From IMG/VR virus record IMGVR_UViG_3300021141_000059, positions 1 to 23,471 of that record: a DNA stretch of 23,471 nucleotides; one strand, given 5' to 3'. The DNA comes from a virus. The notes beneath the pieces are model-generated. The model did no database searches. It saw only the letters and a program-made list of their open reading frames with translations, and was not told where the DNA came from. The translations under genes and the position numbers were made by a program. This document shows, piece after piece, positions 3,713-21,091 of this stretch (its first letter is position 1; each line of letters opens with the position of its first letter).

Positions 3713-4753
3713 ATGGGAATGTTTGATTTACTTCAAGGTCCGTATAGTCAGAATCCAGTCACAGCTGGTATTCAGAAACAGCGCATTGTTCCGGCTCACG
3801 TGTTGGAAGTCTGCATTGATAAAGATTCTCCTTTGTATGAGAATCCTGCCGACATTGGAAAAATCAAATACAGAGATGTAGGAAACTTAACTCCGTTTCG
3901 AACCAAAGTAGAAGACGAGGTAATTGCAGTTGCGTGGCCGATGGATAGATCAATGGGTCGTTACCCATTACCAGGTGAGCAGGTTATTATATTCGAAGCC
4001 TTTGGCGATGTCTTACTTCCAAATGCAACAACTTTACAGCGAATAGCTTTTTACGCTTTCAATGTTAATACTAACCATATTATAACTTCCAACCAGACTC
4101 CTTTCATTTTATCAAACAGTGGTAATGTGTCTAAGAAGCCAGTCAGTAGTGTAGTTGCTTCTAAGAGGTTTGTAAATAAACTTAAAGAACCTAAGGAGTT
4201 TAGAGATGGTGGTGATGTAAAAATATATCCACAAGTACAACCTTTTGAGGGAGATTTTATATTGCAAGGTCGCTTTGGTAACAGTATACGATTGGGATCT
4301 TCTGCAAATAAAGTAGAAGGTAAGAGGGATAAAGGAAGCGAAGCATTGCCATGGAAGAGCTACGGTAATCCAGGTGATCCAATTATGATATTGAGAGTCA
4401 ATAGCGAATATGTGACTGATCCAGAGGATATGTATGTTGTGGAGGATCCTAGCAAGGATGAAGGATCGATATACCTATGTTCTACTCAAAATATAGAATT
4501 AAAATTACAGATACCTAAGAGAATGAAAACTTGGGAAGAGACTTATTTAGTATCACCAAGCTCAGACAAGAAGGAAGATCAAATAAAATCTACTAGCAAA
4601 CTTTACGAAGAAATGTACTCTAAAGTTGTTGAAATGGACAAGGATGTGCATCAGCAGTTAGCTCCACACGGAGACGATCCTACAGATAGATCAAATGCAG
4701 CAACACAAGGCGTTCAAGATGAAGGTCCAATAGAAGAAGATAATTTACAATAG
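3713..4753 (+). CDS. Baseplate hub/spike protein with OB-fold-like N-terminal domain
   Basis: A 346-residue probable virion protein. Residues about 25-120 look like the OB-fold found at the base of tail spikes (T4 gp5 N-terminus, P2 gpV): a strand-rich stretch with VPAHVLEVCID, then the loop GRYPLPGEQVIIFEAFGD typical of the barrel that contacts the hub. A second beta-rich block at about 171-270 contains QPFEGDFILQGRFGNSIRLG and PGDPIMILRV, a pattern I associate with structural proteins of marine T4-like phages. The C-terminal 75 residues are Lys/Glu/Asp-rich and probably flexible. It probably forms the trimeric collar between hub and spike. The next two genes encode a muramidase and a beta-helix protein, giving the domain order of T4 gp5 as separate genes. 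The upstream AAGGGA is the nearest thing to a Shine-Dalgarno sequence in this region. Confidence 0.72.
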   Translation: MGMFDLLQGPYSQNPVTAGIQKQRIVPAHVLEVCIDKDSPLYENPADIGKIKYRDVGNLTPFRTKVEDEVIAVAWPMDRSMGRYPLPGEQVIIFEAFGDVLLPNATTLQRIAFYAFNVNTNHIITSNQTPFILSNSGNVSKKPVSSVVASKRFVNKLKEPKEFRDGGDVKIYPQVQPFEGDFILQGRFGNSIRLGSSANKVEGKRDKGSEALPWKSYGNPGDPIMILRVNSEYVTDPEDMYVVEDPSKDEGSIYLCSTQNIELKLQIPKRMKTWEETYLVSPSSDKKEDQIKSTSKLYEEMYSKVVEMDKDVHQQLAPHGDDPTDRSNAATQGVQDEGPIEEDNLQ

Positions 4754-4757
4754 CAAT

Positions 4758-5726
4758 ATGGCATACACAACACCACCAATAATACAAAGTGGTTTCCAGC
4801 AGAAGTGTCAGGAGATTACGAATCTTATTGATCAAAATTACGAAAAGATTGTAAAGAGTTTTGTTGAAGGAGCAATAAGAGATGCTGGTATCGAACCCAG
4901 AATAAGAATAAGTACTTTGATGCAGTTAGCACAAAACTTTCTAATACCACAAGTTCAAAAGTTTGAAGGAGGTTGGGTAGATCATCCTAGTGACTCTGGA
5001 GGTCCCACTATGCGTGGTGTAATCTCTTCTACCTTCCAAGGTAATTATAATAAGATTTTTATTAATGCAACAAAGCGTGCTGGGTTGGATAATATTGCAA
5101 TAAAGGCGCAAGCATTGGCAGATCAGTTTCCAAACGTAAATAGTGGAGATCGTAGAGGTGAGCATGTTAAAGGTGCACTGTATACTTTCAATTCTAGTCA
5201 CAAAGTTTCCTCCTTATTTATATGGAGCTTTTTATGTTCATCAGCAAATGGCTATCCAATAGCTGTAATGGCTGAGGATGCATGGTTGGGATATATCCAG
5301 TTCGAGACTTGTTGGGGTGGAGGTTCTGGAGCTGCATTTGGTCCAGATAAAGCATCTTATGATGGTGTTGCAAAAAAGAGTTATGGAAGAACTCGTATGG
5401 GAACTGAAGGATGGGTGAAGTGGATATCTGAGGATCTAGGTCCTAGTAAGTTGCCACAATTCACAGTTGAATGCTTTGGTTCTAAGATTGGATTCTATGA
5501 TAGAATAAGTCGCCCAGGTTCTAAGAATAATGTTTTTAGAAAGGGTTGGTTTAATCGACTAATAAATAATCCAACATCGGATTTAAAAATGTGTATCATA
5601 ATTAATGAGATCTTTAATAAGAACTCTACTGGCATGTTTAAGTTTGATGACAAGGAGGTAGAGTTTTTAACTCAAAAGGCAAAGATATATGAATCGCTAA
5701 AAATAAACTATCCTACTGGAGGTTAA
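4758..5726 (+). CDS. Tail-associated muramidase, GH108-like
   Basis: A 322-residue predicted peptidoglycan hydrolase. Residues 67-88 carry the signature of glycoside hydrolase family 108 (N-acetylmuramidase): KFEGGWVDHPSDSGGPTMRG, with E70 of the EGG triplet as probable catalytic acid. The family's C-terminal hallmark also appears late, FRKGWFNRL at about residues 260-268, plus a middle segment AEDAWLGYIQFETCWGGGSGAAFG that fits the substrate-cleft helix. GH108 enzymes are usually under 200 residues. Here about 65 extra residues precede the catalytic Glu and there is extra sequence between the motifs. There is no signal peptide, so it is probably carried on the virion rather than exported as an endolysin. 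It starts 4 bases after the hub/spike gene. It likely cuts the host wall locally during infection, like the lysozyme domain of T4 gp5. Confidence 0.82.
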   Translation: MAYTTPPIIQSGFQQKCQEITNLIDQNYEKIVKSFVEGAIRDAGIEPRIRISTLMQLAQNFLIPQVQKFEGGWVDHPSDSGGPTMRGVISSTFQGNYNKIFINATKRAGLDNIAIKAQALADQFPNVNSGDRRGEHVKGALYTFNSSHKVSSLFIWSFLCSSANGYPIAVMAEDAWLGYIQFETCWGGGSGAAFGPDKASYDGVAKKSYGRTRMGTEGWVKWISEDLGPSKLPQFTVECFGSKIGFYDRISRPGSKNNVFRKGWFNRLINNPTSDLKMCIIINEIFNKNSTGMFKFDDKEVEFLTQKAKIYESLKINYPTGG

Positions 5727-5735
5727 AATAAAAGT

Positions 5736-6719
5736 ATGCCACAATTATCGTATTCAGAGATACTTGAGAAAGTAAAGTCAGAAGGAGGCTTAGAGGCCGC
5801 TCTCAAAGGAACTTCAGCAGCCGGAAGTGGGTTTGGTGGAGAAGGTGAGGGTGGTGCTAGTGGTGGATTTAATCCTCAAGATCTAGTAGGAAGAAGTATT
5901 GAAATAGAAGTACAGCAGCTCCCAATTATTGACTATCCAATGGAAGATCTTTCTTACTCGCAAGAGGTAAGTAAGAAACCAGGTGGTGGTGCGGAGGCTG
6001 TAAAAAAGATTTTATCTATAAAAGGTGGAGGTGATGGAGGTTTATTTGTAAACAACTTCACTAAAACAACTGGGCAAGTTATTATCAACAGTAGTCGTGT
6101 TTTAATAAACGCTGACAAAGACTACTTAATGTTGTTTGGAAAAAACGTAGCAATAGCTTCTACTGGTCCCGTGAACATAGATAGTAGCGATTCGGTTACA
6201 TTATTTGGTGAAAGAGGTTTATTTTTAGGAGTTCCTAATAAAGGGGAGTCTTATGATCCTAATGTACCAAAACCACCAACGGCAAAATCTGATCCTATTC
6301 CAAACCAAGCTTACGAGCCGTTAGTGTTGGGTTCGAAGTTGGCAGAGCTTTTGGATGATATGTTAGTGATTTTAAAAAATGCTAATATAATTACTCCAAT
6401 TGGAAAGGCTTACTTTCTTGAGGATACACAATATGAGTTGGCATGCTTACAGTCACGTATTCCAGAATTACTAAGTACATATGCTTACGTAGATGGAGTA
6501 AGTCATCAGCAAACAATTAAACCAGCACCTACAGCTCCAGAAAAAGTTACTCCATATCCAACTAAATTGGTAGGTACTATAACAGCACTTGGAGATTCTG
6601 TAGTAGATTCAAACGTAACAAACAATCCACCACCAACGAATCCAATTTCATCACCTTTGAAAGATGTACCAGGATTCTACGATTCAGTGGATAATTTATA
6701 TAATATACCAGGAATATAA
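5736..6719 (+). CDS. Spike protein with short beta-helix segment
   Basis: A 327-residue probable needle/spike protein. After a helical N-terminus (1-27) comes a Gly-rich linker (28-45, GSGFGGEGEGGASGG). The main feature is at about 113-166, with short repeating strands of alternating hydrophobic residues and Asn/Asp/Ser turns: GQVIINSSRVLINADKDYLM, LFGKNVAIASTGPVNIDS, SVTLFGERGLFLGV. This is the appearance of the triple-stranded beta-helix of membrane-piercing spikes (T4 gp5 C-terminal part, VgrG-like needles). A helical block follows at about 190-265 (LVLGSKLAELLDDMLVILKN), then a Pro/Thr/Asn-rich tail. It follows the muramidase by 9 bases and precedes the M15 peptidase gene. No PAAR-type tip gene was seen in the window. 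Confidence 0.65.
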   Translation: MPQLSYSEILEKVKSEGGLEAALKGTSAAGSGFGGEGEGGASGGFNPQDLVGRSIEIEVQQLPIIDYPMEDLSYSQEVSKKPGGGAEAVKKILSIKGGGDGGLFVNNFTKTTGQVIINSSRVLINADKDYLMLFGKNVAIASTGPVNIDSSDSVTLFGERGLFLGVPNKGESYDPNVPKPPTAKSDPIPNQAYEPLVLGSKLAELLDDMLVILKNANIITPIGKAYFLEDTQYELACLQSRIPELLSTYAYVDGVSHQQTIKPAPTAPEKVTPYPTKLVGTITALGDSVVDSNVTNNPPPTNPISSPLKDVPGFYDSVDNLYNIPGI

Positions 6720-6720
6720 T

Positions 6721-8172
6721 ATGGCAAACTTAAACGGTAAACTAGGACAAGTGCCAGGAAGTACAGCTGTAATAAATACAGAGGTGTATACTTACTTTGC
6801 ACTTATGGCAGAAGCCTTGAAGCGAGATAAGGGTATTGAATTAAAAGTAGAACAGAGCTACTTATCAAAATTTGAAGTTATAGATGAGTTGAGAAAATCT
6901 GCTAAAAATAAAACACCCAACAATCCTACTATAGCATCTATGCTAGATGTTAAGGTTAAAATGGAGGACATTCTAGGAGTTAAGGCAGCATCTGCTCTTC
7001 CGTCCGGATCTGCAGCACCAGCACCATCTGGCTCTACACCACCAGCACAACCACCAGCACCACCAACCTTTCCTGCAGACTCTTATGAAAAACTTACAAA
7101 GTATTTAGGAACTCTAAAGCGTGGAGATTTTGATCCACCCCTTTATAATGAGTTTAGGAGTTCACAAGAGGAGTTTAATGTGTTTCCTTTTCCTAATTGG
7201 GAGGGGTTTGATCCTAGACAGACAGGAAACTTAGTAGTGATAGGACCTAAGCCAAATATTAAACCAGACGTCTTAGATTGGATATATAATAATAGTATAC
7301 TTTATGGATTTCTTCCTTACGGTAACCCACAGACTCAAGGTTTGTATTTTGTTGGCATTGAGAGTTTAAAGAAAAAGGTAAAGGCGGTAGAGAGTGTAGT
7401 AAAGGTTGTGTCTATATTTTTACAACAACAATTATCCCCATCCATCGTTACAACTACAACAGAGAAGGTTATAACAAACAGCCTTACTGGTGGAACAGAG
7501 TTTCAAAATCCAGGCAACCTTGACTACGCGATAGAGAAGGTTCCAGATAATAATAAAAAGTTAATACAACTAGTCCTTATTCCAGGAGAGGGAGATCATC
7601 TAGTAAGAGAGGATGTAGCAACAGCCTATGTAGCAATGAAAGCTGCAGCGAAGAAAGAAGGAGTTGACTTGAAAATAGGTTCAGCTTTTAGACCACCATT
7701 TGCATTGAATGGTCCAGTAAAAACTAAGGCTGGAAAAAGTCTTAATCCTACAACTCAGTTTAGTATTAGAAAGAGTAGAAAGCCAGATAAGAATGAAGAC
7801 TTTTGGTTAAATGCATCAGCAAACTCCTATAGTCCTGCAGTCGCTCCTCCAGGATCTTCTAACCATGGATCTGGAATTGCATTAGACTTAAACACCGGTG
7901 GATATCCATCGTATCCAGGAAACGCATTAGTAGCGGGTGGTAAAAACTATGAGTGGTTAGCTAAAAATGCACACCGCTATGGTTTTATTAGAGGAGTATC
8001 ATCTGAGGCATGGCACTGGGAATACTATCCACCAAACAAACCTAGCAAGAGCGGTAAGAACTCAAGTCAAGGTCCTTTTGCGATTGTATCTAAAACATCA
8101 CCTACTTGGGGATCATATGCTAATACGGATTGGCAAGGAGCGGGGGGATTTGCAGGAACTCTTACAGCATAA
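6721..8172 (+). CDS. Virion-associated M15 (VanY-like) peptidase with degenerate second module
   Basis: A 483-residue protein starting at ATG 6721, one base after the previous stop. An in-frame ATG at 6664 lies inside the spike gene and is less likely. The C-terminal domain (about 300-435) is a peptidase M15/VanY-type zinc enzyme that cuts D,D- or L,D-bonds in peptidoglycan stem peptides. The visible residues are R324 (GSAFRPP), H382 and D389 (SNHGSGIALD), and E429 with H432 (EAWHWE). These supply the zinc ligands His, Asp, His and the catalytic Glu. An Ala/Pro/Ser-rich linker occupies about 94-116. Residues about 183-212 echo the end of the M15 domain but lack its metal ligands. No signal peptide is present, so with the adjacent muramidase it probably rides on the tail tip. 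An Ala/Gly/Thr-rich tail follows the catalytic domain. Confidence 0.85.
   Translation: MANLNGKLGQVPGSTAVINTEVYTYFALMAEALKRDKGIELKVEQSYLSKFEVIDELRKSAKNKTPNNPTIASMLDVKVKMEDILGVKAASALPSGSAAPAPSGSTPPAQPPAPPTFPADSYEKLTKYLGTLKRGDFDPPLYNEFRSSQEEFNVFPFPNWEGFDPRQTGNLVVIGPKPNIKPDVLDWIYNNSILYGFLPYGNPQTQGLYFVGIESLKKKVKAVESVVKVVSIFLQQQLSPSIVTTTTEKVITNSLTGGTEFQNPGNLDYAIEKVPDNNKKLIQLVLIPGEGDHLVREDVATAYVAMKAAAKKEGVDLKIGSAFRPPFALNGPVKTKAGKSLNPTTQFSIRKSRKPDKNEDFWLNASANSYSPAVAPPGSSNHGSGIALDLNTGGYPSYPGNALVAGGKNYEWLAKNAHRYGFIRGVSSEAWHWEYYPPNKPSKSGKNSSQGPFAIVSKTSPTWGSYANTDWQGAGGFAGTLTA
6999..7068 (+). repeat. Low-complexity Ala/Pro/Ser linker repeat (CACCAGCA-type)
   Basis: Within the M15 peptidase gene, short imperfect repeats of the unit ccaccagca encode alternating Ala-Pro, Pro-Pro and Ser-Gly residues. 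This is a flexible interdomain linker and separates the N-terminal helical region from the degenerate peptidase-like module. Such tracts can expand or shrink by slippage; that is a general property, not something seen here. Confidence 0.7.
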
Positions 8173-8175
8173 GCT

Positions 8176-11100
8176 ATGGCATTAAACTTTGAGACAAAAT
8201 TTACAAAACCACTATCCGAAGACCTAATAGCAGGAAGGATAAAGGGTGCAGAGGATTTTGCTAACGCTATTACTACATATTATATAAAAACTGTACAGGA
8301 TGGTATGCCAGTGGGTGTACCACCAACACTACCTGCGCCAGGACTTAATCCATTAGCACCACCACCCTTCACAATTGGAGTAATAGGTGTAAGACCAAAC
8401 CCAGCAAAGGAGCGTGCTATGTTTGAAATATTGAAGGCTTATTTTTTGGCAAAGGATGTTGCAACAACAAAGGGAGCTATTGTAGGACTTAAAAACTCAG
8501 TAGTAGACACTACAAATAGGCTTAACCAAAAAAAGAAAGAAATAACTGATTTAGCTAAACAGGTAAAGGCAGCTGGACTTGAAATAAAAAACATTCCAAC
8601 GTACGTAAAGGAGGTATTGGAGGGTGTAAAAGAAATAATTCAAGAAGAGAAGGATAAAATTCAAAACCTTCAAAATTTATTTGAAAACCTAAAGGAAGAG
8701 TCTAAAGCTTTAGGAGTAAATGAGGAGGCTTTTCAAAATACTTTTGCTCAGGAGTTAAGACTTATTAATAGTTTAAAGACTTTTAAAGTTGAAAGCTTTG
8801 ATGATTTTGCTAGAATCCCTCAAACAATAAGAGAAACTAAACAAGCAATTTACAGGTTGCAGGGTCAATCTCGATCTGTAACTAATGTAGGAACTCTATC
8901 TAGCACAAGCGATGCTAAGATTTACGCTATGAATAAAATCACCGAAGTAGCACTATCGTTTGAACAGCTGTCTAATATTGTTTTAGATCCACCTAATTTT
9001 TTAAACTACGTTGCCAAGCTGTCGCGAAAGAATCCAAAAGTAGTTAGGCTTTATAGGGGTGTGGAGAAATTAGATGTAGTTGAGAGATTAGTCCGACCAG
9101 AATTAAAGAGGTTAGAGATTGAATTAGATAACGCAAAGCGTGAGGTAAAGCAGTACATTCAACCAAAGATTGATGCGATCAAACAAAAAGTTGAAGATAA
9201 GGTAACGGAGTTGACCATTAAGACAGATGATAGTATTAATACTCGACTTTATCTTAAAGTAAAAGATAGAGTACAAGACTTCCGTACAAACCACGAAGAG
9301 AGTCTGAAAGAGAAAAAACAAGACTTACAAACATTACAAAAGGCAATAACTAAGTCTAACGAAATTATAAAAAAGGTAGCTTCTTTGGAGAAGAGTTTAA
9401 TTCAGGAGTTTGAGGGTATCAAAAGTGAATTAATTATAGTAAAGCAGGAAGCAGCAGGTAGTATCTTGAAGTATAGAGATCTTTCTGTCGAAGCAAAAAA
9501 CCAACTAGCAAAGAGATTTGAGCAACCTATAATACCACAAAACTTAGAATCAATAACTCCAGCTAACCCACTTGAGGATCCTAGAGTTAGTACAACTAAT
9601 CCAGGAGAGTTTGTGCGAGGATATGAGAGGCAGATTGATAGTACTGCTGATTTGGAGCGAACAAGGGAGCTAAGAAGAAACGCAGCCAAAAATCAACAAG
9701 CGCCAGGACCAACGTCCGAGCAGGTTTACGACTATATGAATACAATGGGATTGGGAGATTTTTCTGATGCAGCAGTAAAAGTAATCGCTGAAGCTAAAAC
9801 AGACTTGGATACCTTCAAACGTTTGTTTGAGTTAAAGAGAGGTAACTTATTAGCTTATAAACTTACAATAGAAGATTTAGTATCAAACGTACAAGAGATA
9901 CTAACCCTACTACAAGAGGTTTCTGAATCAAAAGGTTCAGTAGGAAAGAAGGTGGCATGGGCAAAAGACGCAGCTGTGCTAGCAGGTAACAGAGTAAAGT
10001 ATTCTAAAGCAGGAAGGTTTACTGGAACTGTAGCTATATCGTTAAAAGACTTATTTGTTGACATTGTATCTTACATCACTCCATACGTCAAGAAGGCGAT
10101 CAGCTGGGCTCAGAAGTTGTTTGAAAAAGTAAAAGCACTTATCAAACGAAAGGTGGCTACTTTTGAAAAGGATGTTGAGACTTACTTACTTAACCTCGTT
10201 CCACTACAAGGAAAGATACCACAAGCTATTGAAGATGCACAAAACAAAAAACTAATATTAGACGCAAAGCGGGTTAGAGCAGAGGAGTTAAAAGAAAAAG
10301 CTAAATCAATACAAAAGCAGGTAACAGCTTTAGGAAAGGCAGCACGTGGAGCAGCAGGATTGTCAAAAAACCTTTTTCAAGATAAGAATTACAACTACGC
10401 AGCAAACGAACCATTCATTAAGAATACGATTGATGGTATATTTGCGTTTAAAGCAGAAAGAGCAGGAGCTGGTGATGCTCAAAAATTAAAAGCAGAAAAA
10501 GATTACTTTGATCAAAAATTAAAGCAACTTCAGTCGATAGATTTTCTAGTTAACGGATTTTTACTTATAATTCAAGACATACAATCTGACAGTACAAACG
10601 CAATCAAAAGAGAGCTTACAAGTTTTGGTGAATCACTAAAAGGTACAGCAGCACCGTATGTAGCTGGTTTTAATGAGTTGATATCAATAATGGGAACACC
10701 AGTCAAAAATGCATCTCAAATAAGTAAAGCACTTATTAGTGTTACTGGTGATGAGAGGCTTATGACAAGTATAGATGCAGCACTCGAGTCTGCTGATGTT
10801 GTAGGATTTTTGGTTGATCTAGAATCTAGATACCTAGGAAAGACTAGACAAGCTTTGAGAACTTATGTAGATAATCCTATTTCATCAAACCCAGAACATA
10901 CTGCAATGCTTGAGGAATTTCTTAACATCTTAGATAAAAAGCAATCCTTTGTGAGGTTTCTATTGAAAAAGCTCAAAGACATTATTGGTAGGGTTACACA
11001 GTTTATCGGTAAACAGGTGCAGCTCTTTATTGATGAGCAGAAGGAGTTAGCTAAAAAAGTATTAGCGAAATGGAAAACAAATAATGAGGTAGAGTTGGAG

Positions 11101-11394
11101 AGGATAAGAGATAAAGCTGTTAACGTAGAAGCAGCCTTTATGTCTGTAGCCTTGGGATTGGCTGCTAGAGCTTTTTGGACAGGAACTACTTGGACAGGAA
11201 GTACTGGAACAAATCACCTTACTCTAAACATTGGACCGTTTAAACCAATAAAAGCATTACCACAAGATGGAGTTGTGTCTATGGTTGAAGAGATGGCTGC
11301 TAGTTTTGAAAATCAATTAAAGCTAATGGCTGGACTAGTAATCCCACCACCAAACACAGGTATTGTTCCGATTCCATTTAGCGGTTATGTTTAA
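8176..11394 (+). CDS. Giant coiled-coil virion protein (possible tape-measure or hub-associated protein)
   Basis: A 1072-residue protein, largely alpha-helical. Residues about 95-210, 300-430, 555-600 and 680-790 are long Lys/Glu/Gln/Leu stretches of coiled-coil type. The ends differ. Residues 20-75 pair an aromatic helix (FANAITTYYIKTVQDG) with a Pro/Gly segment (LPAPGLNPLAPPPFTIG). The last 80 residues hold a tandem WTGTT/WTGST repeat and a second Pro-rich stretch (VIPPPNTGIVPIPF). Amphipathic patches occur at about 635-665 (LFVDIVSYITPYVKKAISW) and near 990. It lies 3 bases after the tail peptidase and ends the unit before gp25, so it is almost certainly virion-associated. Length and helicity fit a tape measure, but there is no transglycosylase domain or clear transmembrane cluster, and a structural rod of the hub or wedge is an equal alternative. 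Confidence 0.7.
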   Translation: MALNFETKFTKPLSEDLIAGRIKGAEDFANAITTYYIKTVQDGMPVGVPPTLPAPGLNPLAPPPFTIGVIGVRPNPAKERAMFEILKAYFLAKDVATTKGAIVGLKNSVVDTTNRLNQKKKEITDLAKQVKAAGLEIKNIPTYVKEVLEGVKEIIQEEKDKIQNLQNLFENLKEESKALGVNEEAFQNTFAQELRLINSLKTFKVESFDDFARIPQTIRETKQAIYRLQGQSRSVTNVGTLSSTSDAKIYAMNKITEVALSFEQLSNIVLDPPNFLNYVAKLSRKNPKVVRLYRGVEKLDVVERLVRPELKRLEIELDNAKREVKQYIQPKIDAIKQKVEDKVTELTIKTDDSINTRLYLKVKDRVQDFRTNHEESLKEKKQDLQTLQKAITKSNEIIKKVASLEKSLIQEFEGIKSELIIVKQEAAGSILKYRDLSVEAKNQLAKRFEQPIIPQNLESITPANPLEDPRVSTTNPGEFVRGYERQIDSTADLERTRELRRNAAKNQQAPGPTSEQVYDYMNTMGLGDFSDAAVKVIAEAKTDLDTFKRLFELKRGNLLAYKLTIEDLVSNVQEILTLLQEVSESKGSVGKKVAWAKDAAVLAGNRVKYSKAGRFTGTVAISLKDLFVDIVSYITPYVKKAISWAQKLFEKVKALIKRKVATFEKDVETYLLNLVPLQGKIPQAIEDAQNKKLILDAKRVRAEELKEKAKSIQKQVTALGKAARGAAGLSKNLFQDKNYNYAANEPFIKNTIDGIFAFKAERAGAGDAQKLKAEKDYFDQKLKQLQSIDFLVNGFLLIIQDIQSDSTNAIKRELTSFGESLKGTAAPYVAGFNELISIMGTPVKNASQISKALISVTGDERLMTSIDAALESADVVGFLVDLESRYLGKTRQALRTYVDNPISSNPEHTAMLEEFLNILDKKQSFVRFLLKKLKDIIGRVTQFIGKQVQLFIDEQKELAKKVLAKWKTNNEVELERIRDKAVNVEAAFMSVALGLAARAFWTGTTWTGSTGTNHLTLNIGPFKPIKALPQDGVVSMVEEMAASFENQLKLMAGLVIPPPNTGIVPIPFSGYV
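11175..11204 (+). repeat. Tandem 15-bp direct repeat encoding WTGTT/WTGST
   Basis: Two adjacent copies of ttggacaggaactac (11175-11189 and 11190-11204) differ by one base, c versus g at the twelfth position. They are in frame and encode the pentapeptides WTGTT and WTGST at residues 1001-1010 of the coiled-coil protein. A partial third unit (tggaac) follows. The near identity at DNA level suggests a recent in-frame duplication. Confidence 0.8.
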
Positions 11395-11423: not shown

Positions 11424-11903
11424 ATGAAAGCATCTGATTTTGTAAATTTAATGCGCAAGGTTATACGCGAGGAAGTTCGATCGATTGTAAGAGAGGAATT
11501 GAAAACAATTAAACCACTTCTAAAGGAAACCACACAACAAGGATTAAACGCGTCTCTAAGACAAGGACTGCCAGCCAAAACACCAAAGGTAGCAGCTCCA
11601 ACTAGAAAACCAGCAATCACTCCACCAACCTTCGAAGGACCGTTGGCAGGATTACTTAATGAAACATATGAGTCTATGATAAACGATCCAATGCAGGATG
11701 ATGAGTGGCCAGATATGAATGGTGGAGCCTTAACAGCTGACCATGCACAAATGGGAGTACAAAGTATGTCTAGTCTATCGGCTATGATGGATGATGATTC
11801 ACCGTTACCGGATGGGGGTGGATATAGTGATCCAACAAGAGCGTTTATGAAAGATTACACGGCAGTGCTAAAAGCAGCTGATGCACATAGAATGGGTAAC
11901 TAA
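11424..11903 (+). CDS. Small helical/disordered protein upstream of gp25, unknown function
   Basis: A 159-residue protein. Residues 1-35 form a highly charged amphipathic helix (MKASDFVNLMRKVIREEVRS, then REELKTIKP), followed by an Ala/Pro/Lys/Thr-rich linker (about 45-70). The second half is rich in Met, Asp, Gly and Ser (DEWPDMNGG, SAMMDDDSPLPDGGG) and looks mainly disordered. The C-terminal motif DPTRAFMKDYTAVLKAAD forms a last helix. Short proteins with this helix-linker-helix plan are common next to baseplate genes of marine T4-like phages as far as I recall, but without a known function. It opens the unit behind a promoter-like box and its stop overlaps the gp25 start (TAATG), so coupled expression with the wedge proteins is likely. 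A virion adaptor or assembly chaperone is the best guess. Confidence 0.7.
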   Translation: MKASDFVNLMRKVIREEVRSIVREELKTIKPLLKETTQQGLNASLRQGLPAKTPKVAAPTRKPAITPPTFEGPLAGLLNETYESMINDPMQDDEWPDMNGGALTADHAQMGVQSMSSLSAMMDDDSPLPDGGGYSDPTRAFMKDYTAVLKAADAHRMGN

Positions 11904-12334
11904 TGGCAATAGAAGTAAGAATAAACCCGATTGATTTTGAACCAAACACGGCGATTGGTATTGATTTACCTATGAACTCAAGTTCGGGAACTTCTTTTAA
12001 ATTGAACTATCTATCGATAGATCAAGCTGTGGCGAATGCAAAAAACCTACTCTTAACAAATAGAGGAGAACGAATAATGCAACCGGAATTTGGTTGTGAC
12101 TTGCGTAACACTTTGTTTGAAAACATAACAGACGAATTAGTTTTAGATATCGAGAATCGTATTAGATCCAGCTTCGAATATTGGTTACCTTACATATTTA
12201 TTAGAGAACTTGTAGTAGATAATAATAGTGATGCCAACCGTGTCAATATCCTTTTGACTATAGGTTTAATAGGCAATCAAGTGGATACCAGATCTATTCA
12301 ACTTGAGATTTTAAACACAATACAGAATGGCTAA
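11903..12334 (+). CDS. 25: Baseplate wedge protein, gp25/GpW family
   Basis: A 143-residue protein of the normal size for the T4 gp25 / P2 GpW family of sheath-initiating baseplate wedge components. The family signature is clear at residues 53-68: NRGERIMQPEFGCDLR, followed by the usual LFE and an acidic amphipathic helix (ELVLDIENRIRSSFEYWLPY) and a beta-rich end (RVNILLTIGLIG). The protein is homologous to type VI secretion TssE and forms part of the wedge core that templates the first sheath ring. It is translated from an ATG that overlaps the preceding stop and overlaps the following gp6-like gene by 8 bases. That order (gp25/W then gp6/J) is the conserved arrangement in many contractile phages and strongly supports both calls. 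Confidence 0.95.
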   Translation: MAIEVRINPIDFEPNTAIGIDLPMNSSSGTSFKLNYLSIDQAVANAKNLLLTNRGERIMQPEFGCDLRNTLFENITDELVLDIENRIRSSFEYWLPYIFIRELVVDNNSDANRVNILLTIGLIGNQVDTRSIQLEILNTIQNG

Positions 12335-14219
12335 CATAACAAAGAAAACGTCAAAAGATATTAAGTACCTGGGTAGGGACTTCGATTCACTAAAGAGTGG
12401 GTTGGTCGAGTTTACTAAGGTTTACTATCCTGACACGTACAACGACTTTAATGAGGCATCACCAGGAATGATGTTTGTGGAGTTAGCTGCATACGTTGGA
12501 GATGTTTTAAATTACTATGTAGATTCTCAATTTAAAGAGACACTACTACTTCACGCTACGGAGCGCAGAAACATACTATCCATAGCCTCTGCAATGGGAT
12601 ACAAACCTAAGATCAGCGTACCATCACAAGTAGACTTGGATGTATACCAGTTATTCCCTGCATCTGGAAGTGTAGAAAATGTTGTACACGATTTGAGATA
12701 CGCATTAAAAATTCCTGCAGGATTAAGAGGAAGAAGTACAGCAGGTAGTGTGGAGTTCTTGGTTCAAGAGGATATTGACTTCTCAGTAGATAACATATAT
12801 TCTCCTACAGACATCTCTGTGTATACGGTTGATAATAATAATCAACCTAATTACTACTTAGCAAAAAAGACTGTAAAAGCTATATCAGCTCAACCTGAGA
12901 CAATTAATGTAGAGGTGAGTGGAACACAGAAGTTCTTCAAGTTTCAAATAGAAGGAGCAAACTTAATTGGTATTGATAGTATTGTTGATGCAGACGGAAA
13001 TACGTGGTACGAAGTGCCATATCTAGCTCAGGATACTATTTTCGAAAAAGTAACAAACACATCATATAATGATCCAGATGCAGCTGTGTATAGTGAAGAG
13101 TCACCATATCTTTTAAAACTTAAAAGAGTTCCCCGTCGATTTGTATCTCGAGTAACGGAGACTGGTTTAGAGGTTCAATTCGGATCGGGTGTGAGTTCAT
13201 CACCAGATGAGGAGTTATTAGCAACACCAGAAAATATTGGATTAACATTGCCAACGGGTAAGGATGACATCGACTCTTCTATAGATCCACAAGCACCAGT
13301 GTTTACAGGAGCTTATGGTATCGCTCCTTCAAATACAACTTTAACAGTTACCTACTTAGTAGGTGGTGGAATTGCAGCTAATGTTCCAAGCAACACTATT
13401 ACGGAGGTTGTGGCTATCAACGCAAACACAAACAACTTTCCAGCAACTACTGGGGTACTTAATTCTAATATCTTAAACTCTGTGGCGATTAATAATCCAG
13501 CAGCTGCAATAGGTGGTAGAAGTCAAGAAACCCTAGATGAGATAAGACAAAATACACTAGCACAGTTTACATCACAAAACAGAGCTGTAACTAGAGAGGA
13601 TTATATAGTTCGAGCATACGCAATGCCAAACGTATATGGTAGTGTAGCGAAGGTGTTTATAACTCCGGATGAGCAAGCGAACATAGGCACATCTGAGGTA
13701 AACGACACAGTAGCTAATCCCCTAGCAATGAATATGTATGTTTTAGGATATACAAACCAAAAACAATGTACAATAGCAAATAGAGCTATAAAGGAGAATT
13801 TAAAAACATACCTTTCACAATATAGAATGTTAACGGATAGTATTAATATCCGAGACGCCTACATTATTAACATTGGTGTTGACTTTGATGTAATAGCTTT
13901 ACCTAGCTTTAACGCAAACGAGGTCATATTAAATTGCATCACATTACTGAAGGATTTCTTCAACATCGATAAGTGGCAAATTGGACAACCAATAATTTAC
14001 GGAGACATATACAATCTACTGCTACAAGCGACAGGAGTTCAGACAGTAACAGCCGTACGAATAAAAAACATTAACGACGAACTACTTGATTACAGTAATG
14101 TAATATATGATATATCAGAAGCAACTAGAAATGGAATCATTTACCCAAGTTTAGATCCTGCAATATTTGAAGTAAAGTTCCCAGATAACGATATTAAAGG
14201 ACGCATAGCAACATTCTAA
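12327..14219 (+). CDS. 6: Baseplate wedge protein, gp6 / baseplate J family
   Basis: A 630-residue protein close in length to T4 gp6 (660). The N-terminal third has the T4-type gp6 pattern: GRDFDSLKSGLVEFTKVYYP, then TYNDFNEASPGMMFVELAAY, then VGDVLNYYVDSQFKE and an ATERRN segment (residues 17-83). The baseplate-J core is around 398-450 (SQETLDEIRQNT, then NRAVTREDYIVRAYAMPNV), with the C-terminal domain rich in Ile/Asn/Asp. In the virion, gp6 dimers form the ring that joins the six wedges and, with gp25 and gp53/gp7-type partners, opens like an iris on infection. The gene overlaps gp25 by 8 bases and is followed by the next structural gene after one base. Nothing looks truncated or frameshifted. 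Confidence 0.95.
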   Translation: MANITKKTSKDIKYLGRDFDSLKSGLVEFTKVYYPDTYNDFNEASPGMMFVELAAYVGDVLNYYVDSQFKETLLLHATERRNILSIASAMGYKPKISVPSQVDLDVYQLFPASGSVENVVHDLRYALKIPAGLRGRSTAGSVEFLVQEDIDFSVDNIYSPTDISVYTVDNNNQPNYYLAKKTVKAISAQPETINVEVSGTQKFFKFQIEGANLIGIDSIVDADGNTWYEVPYLAQDTIFEKVTNTSYNDPDAAVYSEESPYLLKLKRVPRRFVSRVTETGLEVQFGSGVSSSPDEELLATPENIGLTLPTGKDDIDSSIDPQAPVFTGAYGIAPSNTTLTVTYLVGGGIAANVPSNTITEVVAINANTNNFPATTGVLNSNILNSVAINNPAAAIGGRSQETLDEIRQNTLAQFTSQNRAVTREDYIVRAYAMPNVYGSVAKVFITPDEQANIGTSEVNDTVANPLAMNMYVLGYTNQKQCTIANRAIKENLKTYLSQYRMLTDSINIRDAYIINIGVDFDVIALPSFNANEVILNCITLLKDFFNIDKWQIGQPIIYGDIYNLLLQATGVQTVTAVRIKNINDELLDYSNVIYDISEATRNGIIYPSLDPAIFEVKFPDNDIKGRIATF

Positions 14220-14220
14220 C

Positions 14221-15315
14221 ATGGTACTAAGATTTTATCCAAAAAAAGACGCAACAATATATGAGCGCTACCCTAGTAAGAATACGGGGTTAGATGCTGT
14301 ACTAGAGCTTTCAAAAGTAGTTGCGGCTACTAGTAGCTATAACTCTAGAATACTAATCGACTTCGATTATAGAGAAGCTTCAGCTAGTATAGTTGAGTTG
14401 GGTCTCAATCCTAATAACTTTACTTGGAATCTAAAACTATACGCAACAGAGGAGCAAGAAATACCACTAGACTACACGCTAGAGTGTTATCCTATATCTC
14501 AGAGTTGGAATATGGGAATTGGACGATATGGTAATTCACCAGAGACTACAGAAGGAGTGAGTTGGACCTATAGAGAGGGGGATACTATAGCTGCATCTGC
14601 ATGGTTAACTGCATCGTATGCTGCTGGAAGTACTGCCTATTCGGTTACTACTAAAGGAGGAGGGGTATGGTATACTTCATCCGTGGCATCACAATCTTTT
14701 AGTTATAAAGCTGCAGATCTAGATATGGACGTAAATGGTATAGTCCGTAGAATCCAATCCGGTTCAATTGACTTTCAAGGCTTTATAATAAAAAAACAAA
14801 ACGCAGACGAGAGTTCTTTATCAACTTTCAAGAGTATAAAATTCTTTAGTAAGGATACGCATACAGTTTACTCACCAGTATTAGAGGCAAAGTATAATGA
14901 GAGTGTTAATAACACAACGCTTACTCAAATAGCAACAGATCAGCCTTACAATATTATTTCGACTAACATCGAACGCGAATATAAGGAGGATTCAATTCCA
15001 AGAATATCATTTGCAGCAAGATATAAGTACCCTGTAGTAACCTTCGCAACTTCGTCTGCATATTTAGACAGATATAAACTCCCAGCAGGAGTTCAGTATG
15101 CTATATATAGCGCGCAAACTGATGATGCAATTATAGACTTTAGTCAATACACACTTCTAAGTAGTGATAATAATGGGAACTATTTTCACCTTCCATTACA
15201 AGCATTCCAACCAGAAAGGTATTATAAGGTTTTGCTGAAGGTACCAAACTCTGGTAGCTTTGGTTACCAAATTCATGATAACGATTGGATATTTAAGGTT
15301 TCAAGAAATCAATGA
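14221..15315 (+). CDS. Beta-rich virion structural protein (DNRLRE-like)
   Basis: A 364-residue, mainly beta protein beginning right after gp6. The N-terminus resembles DNRLRE-type beta-sandwich modules: strand, then DATIYERYPSKNTGLD, then a strand LELSK, and after a short loop SRILIDFDY (residues 10-50). The middle is rich in Ser, Thr, Tyr and Trp (SQSWNMGIGRYGN, GVSWTYREGD), as in carbohydrate-facing phage proteins. The C-terminal part (about 245-360) has further strands (YKYPVVTFATSSAYLDRY) and ends in a Gly/His/Tyr-rich sheet. It has no cysteine pair or signal peptide. Its position in the wedge cluster suggests an outer baseplate or short-fibre attachment protein. Its stop overlaps the next start by ATGA (15312-15315). 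The domain assignment is from memory of the family and is moderate. Confidence 0.65.
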   Translation: MVLRFYPKKDATIYERYPSKNTGLDAVLELSKVVAATSSYNSRILIDFDYREASASIVELGLNPNNFTWNLKLYATEEQEIPLDYTLECYPISQSWNMGIGRYGNSPETTEGVSWTYREGDTIAASAWLTASYAAGSTAYSVTTKGGGVWYTSSVASQSFSYKAADLDMDVNGIVRRIQSGSIDFQGFIIKKQNADESSLSTFKSIKFFSKDTHTVYSPVLEAKYNESVNNTTLTQIATDQPYNIISTNIEREYKEDSIPRISFAARYKYPVVTFATSSAYLDRYKLPAGVQYAIYSAQTDDAIIDFSQYTLLSSDNNGNYFHLPLQAFQPERYYKVLLKVPNSGSFGYQIHDNDWIFKVSRNQ

Positions 15316-18300
15316 GAAATTTAGATAATACATTAGATGGTAATTTAGACGATAGCATTTCAGCTTTTACAACGGGGAGTGTGGCTTCCCTATTACCAAC
15401 ATCTAGTATTAACGAAAATGAAACAGCATACGATTTATTACCAGTTATAATAAACCAACCTCCAATAATTAGTAAAGGAATTGCAGACGCTTCAAGCCCA
15501 CAAATCAAGGCTTCACAAACAGCTGATGCTTCAGGAAAGTTTCTATATCAGTTTCCAGATGGAACTATTAAGGTTCTTATTGGTGCGACTTTTGATCTAA
15601 AAATAGAAGCGGTTCAACCTAATGTATTAAATGTTGAAAATGGTATTCCAATAATAAAAGAAGCTAATCAAGACTTATTTTATACATGGAAGTTGGATGA
15701 CGGTATTTTGAGATCATTTGAGCAAACATCCCTACGCAGTAAGGTTAGAGTTGTTAATAATGTAATTCGCTTCGAAAAGATACAACCCATCTCTGCAGGA
15801 ACTTACACGTGTGAAATATCTAACGATATAGGTGTGGTAATTTCAGAACCAATTACAATTGAAGTACTTAATCCAAACCTTGATACATTCTTCTATAAAA
15901 ACCTTATCACTAACGGGAGTGGTATGGAGGGTGTAGCTGGTTGGGAAGGTGATGTAGATACGCTCGTGGTCAGAGAAATGACAAAGCGAAATACTACACT
16001 ATTAAAGGTACCTAATCGAGTTGACTTATTCGGATACAATGCAGACACAATGCATCCACGCCCATACCAGTTAGAGTCCGGTGTAATAAAGGATGTTAAT
16101 TATACCCAAGATTTTTCCTCAAACGGAAAGGGAGGTTATTTTTCGAGAGATGTTTATAAGTTTGAGCAGGCAGGCGGAAAGTATTACGTTAACGTCTATC
16201 AGGATGTAGATGTTACTCCAATCCAGGATTTGGTAAAGGGTAGCGTTTATGGTATAGAGGGGGTTAGAGCAATACTTGGTTGTTATATAGGAAACGCTAT
16301 TGGTCAGTTTATTCCAACAAACACCACAATAAGCCCAGACCAAAAGACAGATCCAAAAAACTATGCAATGGGACATCCGAGGCTTAGTGTTGAAAACTTT
16401 TTAACAGCTGGACCAGGTTTTGTTGTAGATAAGTGTTATGTTACCTTGGAAGAGTATGATAAAGAGACTAGATTAATAAGTAGAGTTCTACTACCTAGTG
16501 GAGCAGTGAGACAGCAAACAAATGTCATAACGCTATTAGATCCATGGACTAAAGCCCTATCTAAGCATTATGGAAAAACATATTACGAGAATGATAAATT
16601 CCAATTAGGCTTCACTTCCAAAGCTCAAGGACTTGACGCAGTATTATTTGCAGCAGATGAGTTATACCCAAATCCACAAGACAGACCAACACATGGCCAG
16701 TATATGGAATTTAATCGTCTAGTGCTTGAGAGGCTTAACCCAAAAACAACAACAATTAGAGTTGGTATTAATTTCTACACCAACGACTGGCGCATAGCTA
16801 ATGGAGAAGATTATGCAGACTCAGGTTCAGATCTAATATTTGAAACTATAGGATACGAAAAAAACTATAAAAAGAATACATTTGAACAAAAGGGTAATGC
16901 TGATGAGGTTGATTTTATACTATCTGCAGTAGCTAGAAATGATAAATTTAAAGGAAAACCAAGAGTAGAGCAAATACCTCTTGCACCACCTCCAAGAGTA
17001 GCAGTAACTGGTGTTACATTATCGTTACTTCCAGTTGAGCGAGGAGATAAGTCAACGACAAACTACTATACACAAGCTACATTTAATACAAATAATAGAC
17101 CACAAGTTTCTTCTGTTAGTGGGTTAAAGAGAGAAGCGAGGTTTGATCCAATGGGTGTGTTATTTAGAGACTTGTTTGTTAATTTTGCACACCAATCCCA
17201 ACCTAGATTGATATTTGAGGATAATAGATTAAAGCAGCAGCACCAAACGACTTTATCACTAAAGCAGCAGTCAAGTAGAGATGCTTCTCCAAAAAGGTTT
17301 AACGTAGTGCAAGGGTCTATTTTTCCGTTTAAAGCAAATAGTGAAGTACGAGCTTATGGATTATCTAATTTAGACTTTGAGTCTAATTTAGAGGAGTTGA
17401 ATCTGTTACTAGAACCTTATAAGAATAGTATATACATGCACCCTACTGGGAGTGTGAGAACCATTGATGAGGTGCAGGAGTTTGAAACTATAAAAACTAC
17501 ACTTACTGGTTTAACAACTACAATACACAGTCAATTAAATGTAGCGCTTTCTGCCGAAGAGAATAAGGATGTACTTTGGAAGCAGCGGTTTAGATATACC
17601 CTAAGCTACATGGTTCGTAAGTCTGGAGTGGATTTGATGGATATTGGTTTTGCTAATCAGTACTACTTGTTAGTGGATTTTAATTCAGAAACCCCGATTA
17701 TACTATATAAAGATTCTAGTTTGGGAGGTATTGAAGTGTCGTTCGTAGTAGATGATTATCAAGTAGATGAGGTTGTAGGGCTTCGATTTCAGCTACCACA
17801 AGAGATGTTATCAACTTCAGTAGCAGAAGGAGGTTTAGGAATACCGTTTGTGTCAAATTATGAGCAGCAAGGAGTTAGGGGTGTAGAAGTGTTAAGCTTT
17901 TTATCTAATATAGATCAGTTCCCTTCAGCAAGTGCCTCATCAACTATCACTAGTCTGTACAATTCATATAGAGCGCGAGCGCAAGCTGTTAATGATGTTG
18001 CTGCACAGGAAAACTTAACACGTGCTATTTATGGAATACCACTGTTAGATGGAGTGGATATCGTTGAAGAAAGTGAGTTTGAAACTAATATAAGAGGTTA
18101 TTTATCTAAACAAGTAACTCTTGGATTTTTAAAGACCAACTACCTACTAGATCGACTTAGTGCGACAATTTATACCGGAGCAACTGTGCTTGATCCTACA
18201 TACACAACAACACTATATGCAGTAGGAATGGCACCACAGGTAGGTACTAATCTCAACGGATCACCAATAGAGGGTAGAGATGAAAACGGAATTACATACA

Positions 18301-18347
18301 CACTGAAGTATCCGCAAATTAAGGATAGCCAAACTGCGCTCAAATGA
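15312..18347 (+). CDS. Large baseplate/tail protein with Ig-like domain (paralogue 1)
   Basis: A 1011-residue protein. After a low-complexity N-terminus (Asn/Asp/Ser/Thr), residues about 90-186 form an I-set-like Ig domain with W126 (FYTWKLDDG), the AGTYTCEISN motif ending at C167, and closing strand SEPITIEVLNP. The usual first cysteine is absent, as in many phage Ig domains. Directly after comes FFYKNLITNGSG (about 193-205), followed by a Gly/Trp segment resembling the start of a carbohydrate-binding jelly-roll ('NLL.NG...GW'). The remainder is beta-rich with a helical part at about 880-940. The next gene repeats the Ig plus 'NLL.NG' order, so the two are paralogues. The start overlaps the previous stop (ATGA). 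Likely an outer baseplate or fibre-attachment protein that touches the host or its polysaccharide. Confidence 0.72.
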   Translation: MRNLDNTLDGNLDDSISAFTTGSVASLLPTSSINENETAYDLLPVIINQPPIISKGIADASSPQIKASQTADASGKFLYQFPDGTIKVLIGATFDLKIEAVQPNVLNVENGIPIIKEANQDLFYTWKLDDGILRSFEQTSLRSKVRVVNNVIRFEKIQPISAGTYTCEISNDIGVVISEPITIEVLNPNLDTFFYKNLITNGSGMEGVAGWEGDVDTLVVREMTKRNTTLLKVPNRVDLFGYNADTMHPRPYQLESGVIKDVNYTQDFSSNGKGGYFSRDVYKFEQAGGKYYVNVYQDVDVTPIQDLVKGSVYGIEGVRAILGCYIGNAIGQFIPTNTTISPDQKTDPKNYAMGHPRLSVENFLTAGPGFVVDKCYVTLEEYDKETRLISRVLLPSGAVRQQTNVITLLDPWTKALSKHYGKTYYENDKFQLGFTSKAQGLDAVLFAADELYPNPQDRPTHGQYMEFNRLVLERLNPKTTTIRVGINFYTNDWRIANGEDYADSGSDLIFETIGYEKNYKKNTFEQKGNADEVDFILSAVARNDKFKGKPRVEQIPLAPPPRVAVTGVTLSLLPVERGDKSTTNYYTQATFNTNNRPQVSSVSGLKREARFDPMGVLFRDLFVNFAHQSQPRLIFEDNRLKQQHQTTLSLKQQSSRDASPKRFNVVQGSIFPFKANSEVRAYGLSNLDFESNLEELNLLLEPYKNSIYMHPTGSVRTIDEVQEFETIKTTLTGLTTTIHSQLNVALSAEENKDVLWKQRFRYTLSYMVRKSGVDLMDIGFANQYYLLVDFNSETPIILYKDSSLGGIEVSFVVDDYQVDEVVGLRFQLPQEMLSTSVAEGGLGIPFVSNYEQQGVRGVEVLSFLSNIDQFPSASASSTITSLYNSYRARAQAVNDVAAQENLTRAIYGIPLLDGVDIVEESEFETNIRGYLSKQVTLGFLKTNYLLDRLSATIYTGATVLDPTYTTTLYAVGMAPQVGTNLNGSPIEGRDENGITYTLKYPQIKDSQTALK

Positions 18348-21091
18348 AAAAGATAACAACTAAACTAACAGGTGTTGCTCCAACACAAGAATTACGATCA
18401 GGTGACTTTTTCTTAATGCCCGAAAACCCAGCACCACCAGCTATTGTTTCAGACTTGGATAGAAACGTAAGACAAAAGACGTGGGTTAGAGAAATCATAG
18501 CCGGACGTCCTAGTTATTTTGAAATAGAGCCATCGTTTGGAGTTTATAGTGTAGTTGCTGGAACTGAAATTGAGATGTTTATCATCGCTGAAGATCCATC
18601 GCTAGTAGACGCTCAGAGTTTAGGAAACGATAGTAATCTGCAGTATGCCTGGAAAAGGGATGGTGCATCTATTACGGAAGTTAATTCACTGAACAATGGA
18701 AAAGGAATACCAGGTTTGAGCATTCCAGCAGCAGATGTGAATGCTAATGTTGGAGGAGTTTATGTTTGTGAGGTTACCAATGCCTATGGAACAACGGTGT
18801 CGAGTCGTATCCGCTTAGAGGTTATAGAAACAACGCTACACCCAATGATGTATCGAAATCTACTCAAAAACGGATCTTCTACTCAAAACTGGATAACAAG
18901 TACCGATATAATTACTAGATCCTTTTTAAGGAATGAGCAGTTAACTAAGCATTATGGAAGTTTACCAGGATTTAGTTTTTATGACTTCAAAGCGGATAGA
19001 CCAATAGGAGATCGCTATCCCTGGGAATTTCGCTTTTGTCAAGGAGGTAGTGCTGGACTTTTGTATCATCTTTTAGCAAAGTGGTACAAGAGAGATAGAA
19101 ATCTTTTTGATATAAATACCGATAGCAGTTCGGAGCGAGACTTGGACGGATGGGAAGATTGGGTATTGAAATCATTCCCATCAAACATAGTTCCCAACGA
19201 AGATATAAGTTCTTACAAAAATGCAGGATTCTTCCCAGGATTGAAGTGGATGGATTCCTATAATAGGAATACTAATAAAGTTATAGGATTAGAGAGTGAA
19301 GTAGAGGATCAAGTATTAACATACATCACTAGAGATAAGATAAAATTCAAAAAAGATGGAGGTAGAGAGGTTTCTACTTGCAGTCAGACAATTGATATAT
19401 CACAACTCAGCAATGCAATAGATGGTAAGATAACTGGACTTAATCAGATTAATGGTCAATTTTTTGCATACGTAGGAGCAGGAATTACAGGATATAAAAT
19501 TAGAGTTACAACATTAAATGGTGTAGAGACCTTTAATTGGTACGTATTAGATCCTAATGACTTTTTTGACAGAATAACGAAAAACACAGATAACCGCATA
19601 TCCCTAGTAAAGGATAGTGTAATAGAGATTATACCAGTTGTAGAAGATACAACTCAAATTTCTATTATAGCCAAAAATAATAACAACACCGAGTTGTCTA
19701 GAGTAGACATAGAAGGACCATCTGCTGTAGATGTTTTTGCTATAAAGGAGAAGGCAAACCTGCCTTTGACCTGGTATCCTGTTTTTGAGATGTTCATAAC
19801 CAATAATAACGATATCCGTATATTTGGTCAAACGTATTCTAACACGGATAGTTTACTACCTTTGATGTCTCCGAACCCAGCCATACCAAACCAAAAACTT
19901 AAAGGCTATGAGTATAGATTAAAACTAGAAAATTTTACTGGTGGAGCAGTTAAGAGAAGAAGGTTTAAAAACATACTAAAGGATGTAGGTTATACCGAGG
20001 ATGAGGGAGAGCAGATTATCGCATCAAACGGAGCTATAGATTTAACTACCTTTATAGCTAAAAAACAAAGAGAGGGGTATAGTTTAGGAGATTTTACACC
20101 ATCAACATCCACAGAAGTTGAAGGTTGGCAGTATAAAAGAGTAAAGGAGCACTATCAACATATAAGAAAGTTGCTGCAAGATGTAGAGGTTGGTATTAAG
20201 GTAAAGTTGATTTCAACACCCCTTTACCAAAACCTAGGGATAAGCGATAATGAAAATATCAGCGCAACAACTTTGCAAAGAGATTTACCTAATATCGATA
20301 AAAACGCTGCATTCTTTCTTAAAAAGATTAAGTATCAACAGGGTGGAAGTTACTTTCCTGTAACAACATACCACCCCGAATGGAGTGGAGATACTCCTAT
20401 TAACGCAAAGCGTGTTAATAAGGCTTTGCAAGACTATGGAGCAGCTGCGATGTTCGGTGTGGGATCAACTTTTGCAATACCAAAAAACACCAAAACGGTA
20501 GAGATTTTAATTACCTTTACTCACACCTCAGAAGCAATGGACGATCCTTCACCAGAATTGAAATCCTGGACACGCCAAGATATCTATCGAAGCGACTTTG
20601 CAACAACTAACAATGGAAGGTGTTTTAGGGAGTATGGATATCCAAGATGTGGAGTGTCTTTGGCTAAGTTTTTGCTTTTTGATCAAACAACAGAAGTTGG
20701 TGATGATTTTACTAGTTATTATATTCCACCACCAGAAGCAACTGTGTTAGGTTTACGAAGAAATAAGCTTTATCAAGATACAAACGACACCTCAGCACCG
20801 GGTACTTTTAAGTATGATTTTATAGTTCCTAACTCACTACCAGAGTTTACTGGACTTGATATATACACTCTTAATGATGCTTTAGAATCTTACCAAAGAG
20901 ATGTGCAGAGAATTGACAGCACACTTACTCCTGGTCAATCGCTGGAGGATAGAGTCAACTTTGAAGAGACGGTATCAGAAACAGAGGATGCTAGTTTGGA
21001 TAGGCTTGAAAACATTGAAAGCAATATTCCGGAAGACGCTGATATAACTGATGAGGATCAGGTAGGTATGGATAATAATCAAAACCCATAG
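18344..21091 (+). CDS. Large baseplate/tail protein with Ig-like domain (paralogue 2)
   Basis: A 915-residue protein overlapping the preceding gene by ATGA. Residues about 65-165 form an Ig-like domain with W103 (QYAWKRDG), the GGVYVCEVTNAYG motif with C142, and closing strand SSRIRLEVIE. Again the first canonical cysteine is missing. At 168-180 follows MMYRNLLKNGSS, the counterpart of FFYKNLITNGSG in the upstream protein. The rest diverges: a segment with YPWEFRFCQGG, a helical region at about 590-635 (KHI/RKLLQDVEVGIKVKL-like), and a Tyr/Pro/Gly-rich C-terminal beta region containing REYGYPRCG. It ends in an acidic tail (NIPEDADITDEDQ) and stops with tandem TAG TAA. It is probably a second baseplate or receptor-contact component made by ancient tandem duplication and divergence. 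Confidence 0.72.
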   Translation: MKKITTKLTGVAPTQELRSGDFFLMPENPAPPAIVSDLDRNVRQKTWVREIIAGRPSYFEIEPSFGVYSVVAGTEIEMFIIAEDPSLVDAQSLGNDSNLQYAWKRDGASITEVNSLNNGKGIPGLSIPAADVNANVGGVYVCEVTNAYGTTVSSRIRLEVIETTLHPMMYRNLLKNGSSTQNWITSTDIITRSFLRNEQLTKHYGSLPGFSFYDFKADRPIGDRYPWEFRFCQGGSAGLLYHLLAKWYKRDRNLFDINTDSSSERDLDGWEDWVLKSFPSNIVPNEDISSYKNAGFFPGLKWMDSYNRNTNKVIGLESEVEDQVLTYITRDKIKFKKDGGREVSTCSQTIDISQLSNAIDGKITGLNQINGQFFAYVGAGITGYKIRVTTLNGVETFNWYVLDPNDFFDRITKNTDNRISLVKDSVIEIIPVVEDTTQISIIAKNNNNTELSRVDIEGPSAVDVFAIKEKANLPLTWYPVFEMFITNNNDIRIFGQTYSNTDSLLPLMSPNPAIPNQKLKGYEYRLKLENFTGGAVKRRRFKNILKDVGYTEDEGEQIIASNGAIDLTTFIAKKQREGYSLGDFTPSTSTEVEGWQYKRVKEHYQHIRKLLQDVEVGIKVKLISTPLYQNLGISDNENISATTLQRDLPNIDKNAAFFLKKIKYQQGGSYFPVTTYHPEWSGDTPINAKRVNKALQDYGAAAMFGVGSTFAIPKNTKTVEILITFTHTSEAMDDPSPELKSWTRQDIYRSDFATTNNGRCFREYGYPRCGVSLAKFLLFDQTTEVGDDFTSYYIPPPEATVLGLRRNKLYQDTNDTSAPGTFKYDFIVPNSLPEFTGLDIYTLNDALESYQRDVQRIDSTLTPGQSLEDRVNFEETVSETEDASLDRLENIESNIPEDADITDEDQVGMDNNQNP

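Follow-up and report, generated by a model that had tools for sequence, protein, structure and literature searches.

The locus described here raises the question of whether the central spike of a contractile tail can be encoded by three consecutive genes instead of one. T4 gp5 is the textbook cell-puncturing device, with one chain, one lysozyme and one maturation cut. The window, which designates the whole stretch of DNA analysed, is a 23.5 kb virus record from an uncultivated phage, with a baseplate module containing gp25-type and gp6-type genes. The original prediction placed an OB-fold-like protein, a GH108-like muramidase and a short beta-helix protein one after another, and the three open reading frames were confirmed at exactly the predicted coordinates, all on the plus strand: gene 1 (3713–4753), gene 2 (4758–5726) and gene 3 (5736–6719). 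A search of the open-access literature found no description of a split gp5-like spike.

Neighbouring genes on the same strand include baseplate genes and a probable entry enzyme. Gene 4 (6721–8172) encodes a VanY (M15) peptidase domain (about 7597–8031; PF02557, 61.1 bits) behind an N-terminal domain, and its product is probably a second entry enzyme. The marker of the baseplate module is a gp25-type wedge protein (11903–12334; PF04965, 42.3 bits), followed by a gp6-type wedge protein (12327–14219; PHROG baseplate wedge subunit), which matches phage records at 42–49% in tblastn and served as the anchor for finding relatives and building a tree. The closest annotated records by gp6 are Microcystis phage Mel-JY01 (49%), Flavobacterium phages (immuto, 46%) and the metagenomic phage LR756508 (42.5%). 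A 1072-aa protein (8176–11394), apparently mostly helical, separates the VanY gene from the gp25 region; its place is filled in other loci by proteins of 280–1090 aa. Two big adjacent proteins farther downstream (15312–18347 and 18344–21091) are paralog-like, and both carry an Ig-like stretch close to their N-terminus (GTYTCEISNDIGV and GGVYVCEVTNAYGT).

The gene 2 product (322 aa) can be placed in the GH108 family, as had been predicted. It matches PF05838 with 31.6 bits, above the curated cut-off of 21.2, and the expected catalytic residue, Glu70 (codon 4965–4967), is intact in an EGG motif, so that both sequence marks of GH108 are present. The protein also carries the motif FRKGWFNRL, and its comparison with solved GH108-type proteins gave weak, collinear matches at the EGG and C-terminal GW.NRL motifs. 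An extension of about 60 aa precedes the muramidase at the N-terminus.

The AlphaFold2 model of the gene 1 product, built with an alignment of 54 relatives as input, has a pLDDT of about 85–95 across most of residues 20–270 and low confidence in the C-terminal tail. The OB fold predicted for the first protein was recovered as a five-strand barrel at residues 25–118 (about 3785–4066), and a second beta region occupies residues 182–256. In VIA-align comparisons with this model, spikes of contractile systems account for 16 of the best 50 rows with Z of 5.0–6.2, comprising P1 (6.2), Afp8 (6.0), P2 gpV (6.0), VgrG (5.7 and 5.3), Mu gp45 (5.7), T4 gp5 (5.2 and 5.1) and further spikes from phi92, E217, Pam3 and phiKZ; non-spike OB proteins, ribosomal ones included, reach equal values, and a middling Z alone is little proof. 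Unlike the other OB proteins, nearly all of the spikes align past the barrel to model residue 233–276. The range of T4 gp5 aligned to the model is 6–432 (end points only, Z 5.1), and because this range covers the OB domain as well as the antiparallel strands that open the needle domain, residues 389–427 (PMC4576200), the gene 1 product probably holds the needle neck as well as the OB. The putative neck corresponds to residues 165–263 (about 4205–4501, plus strand) with the motif EGDFILQGRFGNSIRLGS...EGSIYLCSTQNIEL. The claim that the parts follow exactly the order of gp5 stands for the genes but needs amendment for the domains, since the first gene seems to hold part of the needle too. Foldseek gave no significant match for the gene 1 model. 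Genes 1 and 3 of the window had no real match in PHROGs or Pfam, and the OB family yielded nothing of use against PHROGs. The OB and needle profiles had no convincing match among PDB sequences, where the matches were mostly coiled coils and designed helices and VgrG (8gra) reached no better than E 0.085.

The gene 3 product consists of an N-terminal extension (residues 1–104), seven octads (residues 114–169; 6075–6242, plus strand) and, beyond these, an EPLVLG helical segment and a C-terminal tail. The octads read QVIINSSR, VLINADKD, YLMLFGKN, VAIASTGP, VNIDSSDS, VTLFGERG and LFLGVPNK. The T4 needle is likewise built of octad repeats (VXGXXXXX) (PMC3004832). The hydrophobic period of 8 residues is significant at lag 8 (r = 0.42, p 0.001) and at lag 16 (p 0.003), with T4 gp5 as the control giving 0.63. 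Among the members of the needle family, 11 of 57 match DUF2345, with a best value of 1.1e-4. DUF2345 is the needle domain of VgrG. The monomer model of the gene 3 product was uninformative, as would be expected for an intertwined trimer folded as a single chain; it had no match in Foldseek. Support for the predicted beta-helix comes from sequence only, and the monomer model did not reproduce this fold. The assignment of gene 3 as a beta-helix needle is supported by the DUF2345 matches of its family, the octad period and the homology to one-chain spikes described below. The window's needle gene had no match among annotated phage records, and hence no isolate of the split type is known.

Profile comparisons indicate that genes 1 and 3 are two halves of one protein. 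With hhalign, the gene 1 family aligned to columns 23–264 (E 1.5e-27) and the gene 3 family to columns 274–363 (E 3.8e-15) of a one-chain spike family. The scores were 202.4 and 113.5 (the latter for the gene 3 family); column-shuffled controls did not exceed 22.3, and a reversed-profile control gave no signal. In addition, 50 single proteins are matched in both parts (E < 1e-5) by HMMs built from split-type proteins alone; among them are the close one-chain proteins of L202, L203, L204 and L214, with E values for the needle of 3.5e-66 to 7.5e-61 (loci of relatives are given by L number). These results support the reading that genes 1 and 3 encode the N- and C-terminal halves of what is a single spike protein in most relatives, in agreement with the split that had been proposed. 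The continuation of the OB into the needle, a feature of gpV/VgrG-type spikes, is found here across two genes. In the first survey, one-chain relatives have a linker of −2 to 22 aa between the halves and no enzyme, and split loci mostly have 216–569 codons there; the exceptions are L009, where VanY sits on the upstream copy of OB, and L037, whose contig is short.

The position of the muramidase between the two halves is conserved. Among its 29 distinct relatives at E < 1e-20, an OB gene lies immediately upstream in 27 of the 27 with an upstream flank, and a needle lies immediately downstream of, or is fused to, the muramidase in all 27 with a downstream flank. The relatives that do not have an OB or needle neighbour lie at contig ends. 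This recurrence indicates that the three-gene layout is more than chance. None of the 44 weaker GH108 proteins from the same scan has an OB or needle on its locus. In L193 and L195, the muramidase and the needle are fused in one chain; both fusions are divergent, and Pfam calls no GH108 there. The linkage and the fusions, together with the loss of the catalytic Glu in several members described below, are strong indirect evidence that the muramidase belongs to the spike, which is very probable.

The GH108 family, with its 29 distinct proteins, is one of several occupants of the gap between the halves. L009, L021 and L205 have VanY fused to an OB gene, and Amidase_2 is fused to OB in L024, L025 and L083 (partially in L085). 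Peptidase_M15_3 occurs as a gene of its own in L047 (and its near-copy L048), L062 and L072. L196 encodes a GH24 phage lysozyme and OB in one chain (6307–7794) with a separate needle gene downstream, a layout that corresponds at the gene level to T4 gp5* and gp5C. In L009 and L021, the downstream gene has only the N-terminal domain of gene 4, VanY being on the OB, as if VanY had moved from the one gene to the other. Judging from its contents, the gap resembles a plug-in site where entry enzymes of unrelated families can be placed. No recognised enzyme was found in the gap of the split loci L022, L033/L034, L064, L086 and L212, and in the wider survey the OB and needle genes are adjacent with nothing between them in L230, L235, L236, L238, L239 and L254, which rules out that the split always accompanies a gap enzyme. 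The middle gene of L022 was considered as a degenerate muramidase, which we do not propose at an hhalign E of 0.0012 and a probability of 20%.

Several of these loci have further peculiarities. Two OB paralogs precede a single needle gene in L009, L021, L205 and L208, and one of them bears the VanY in the first three. OB and muramidase-like genes are followed by two consecutive needle paralogs in L119 (6849–9716, to the contig end) and by three in L120 (4249–8647); these paralogs of 443–508 aa could form a needle of mixed chains. L212 (2068–10882) has three consecutive OB paralogs (576, 701 and 616 aa) and then a single 1032-aa needle protein whose C-terminal part matches GDPD weakly (E 9e-4, below the cut-off). 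The OB extension in the gap of L064 (2602–4746) contains clustered cysteines (RCENCAFFKAG...QCSKW...YCASYA) reminiscent of iron-sulphur proteins, and the C-terminal domain of the L022 needle protein (4647–6212) has HRG...YSAGC motifs that recall L,D-transpeptidase-type enzymes; neither has a Pfam match.

The tree of gp6 from 108 loci places the split state in separate clades, namely the window's clade (with every GH108 locus on the tree), the clade of L024 (amidases and M15 peptidases) and the group of L086, L235 and L254. The one-chain loci L203 and L214 are nested within the window's clade. The tree needs 5 switches between the states, each possibly in either direction, or about 4 when that of L054, which reflects only a truncated contig, is set aside; this number speaks against a single origin of the split. 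The one-chain state is likely to be the older one, judging from the one-chain spikes of P2, T4 and VgrG.

An ordinary lysis endolysin that came by chance to lie between two spike genes would agree with the frequency of GH108 among phage endolysins (PHROG 315, "endolysin") and with the mosaic gene order of phages. It would not account for the fact that all flanked relatives have the muramidase between their OB and needle, for its fusion to the needle in two of them, for the N-terminal extension or for the OB fusions by which unrelated wall hydrolases occupy this gap in other relatives, and the catalytic Glu is lost in several members; we regard this reading as unlikely. The Glu is replaced by Asp or Ser in L011, L019, L122, L126, L142, L193, L119 and L120, where the protein still lies in the gap. 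Because these members keep their place, a structural part of the gene 2 family in the spike is suggested. An extended form of this idea, that gene 2 is family-wide a structural collar joining hub to needle with dispensable enzymatic activity, is likewise unlikely. Against it stand the retention of the Glu by most members, the window's among them, and the presence of unrelated hydrolases, or of nothing, in the gap of other split relatives.

The separateness of the genes was also considered. Genes 2 and 3 of the window share a frame and are 9 bases apart, as might be the case if the three genes yielded one polypeptide by frameshift or readthrough. However, junction frames and spacings vary among loci, stop/start overlaps (TAATG) occur, and each gene has an ATG start in nearly all loci, so that a single polypeptide is hardly credible; the variation of frames also means that the genes are truly distinct rather than the product of a sequencing error. 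It had also been proposed that a T4-type chain of OB, lysozyme and needle was broken in three and its lysozyme replaced. The gene order mimics the domain order of gp5, and L196 has a GH24 phage lysozyme fused to OB and a needle gene of its own. The one-chain relatives, however, have no lysozyme in their short linker, the gap apparently follows the neck whereas the T4 lysozyme precedes it, and single-sequence hhalign of the spike genes to T4 gp5 and P2 gpV gives no signal; as L196 shows, the gap can also take up a lysozyme. Descent from a broken gp5 is therefore very unlikely, and the other proposal, a modular spike that evolved separately, is the better fit, GH108 being one of several gap enzymes.

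Comparison with known systems helps to define this modular spike. In T4 gp5, the lysozyme (174–339) precedes the beta-helix domain (389–575) (PMC4576200). In the T4 virion, the hub-plus-lysozyme (gp5*) and the needle (gp5C) are present as separate chains; the cleaved halves stay joined, and full activity of the lysozyme requires that the needle depart first (PMC3004832). The window shares with T4 the OB domain, which is N-terminal in gene 1 as in gp5, a muramidase, an octad-repeat needle and adjoining baseplate wedge genes. T4 makes one chain that is then cleaved, whereas the window has three genes; its enzyme is not a GH24 lysozyme within the same chain, placed between the OB and the start of the needle domain, but a GH108 protein from a separate open reading frame, in a gap apparently after the neck. 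The window's spike would act like T4 gp5, yet it falls outside gp5 proper by its separate genes, its other enzyme family and probably another place of insertion. P2 gpV and Mu gp45 combine OB and needle without an enzyme beside gp25/W and gp6/J type genes, as the one-chain relatives of the window do; they are single chains, and the window's is cut in two, with an enzyme gene in the gap. VgrG of type VI secretion also has an OB and a DUF2345-type needle, and its cargo enzymes may be fused to the spike or carried by it. It differs in having a gp27-like part and the OB in one chain with the needle, without an internal cut holding an enzyme gene. Phages immuto and Mel-JY01, the closest annotated relatives by gp6, share the gene neighbourhood but encode OB and needle in a single gene (378 and 503 aa, respectively); a "putative chitinase" gene follows the spike gene in Mel-JY01 and is absent there in immuto. 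At the level of sequence, the window's spike has the features of a gpV/VgrG-type spike spread over two genes, and it is a variant of the gp5/gpV/VgrG spike.

Taken together, we consider it likely that the three genes encode the central spike of a contractile tail with a muramidase at the hub–needle joint for use at entry. In the virion, the products would join into one spike: the gene 1 product (OB and neck) would sit on the hub, the gene 3 product would form a trimeric needle, and the muramidase would be held at the joint between them. The chain is cut within the needle region, apparently just after the neck, here and in at least two other clades. At entry, the needle would puncture the outer membrane of the presumed host and then detach, and the muramidase, presumably active and freed by the loss of the needle, would open the peptidoglycan. 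This step would be the job of the T4 tail lysozyme, with gene boundaries replacing the maturation cleavage of T4. More tentatively, and with less than even confidence, the spike may be obligately hetero-oligomeric, with a muramidase-fold protein as a removable hub–needle joint that can be re-equipped with unrelated hydrolases. Some relatives also have duplicated OB genes (three in L212) or needle genes (three in L120), which suggests spikes of mixed chains.

In these phages, the cut is made at the level of the gene, and the enzyme has been exchanged among at least five families (GH108, GH24, amidase, VanY and M15). The loci would offer a natural series for studying how a needle docks and forms a trimer without its hub, and how a lysozyme stays silent and is then released. 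They also provide a search rule for environmental phages, whose virion-associated wall enzymes can be sought between the OB and needle genes.
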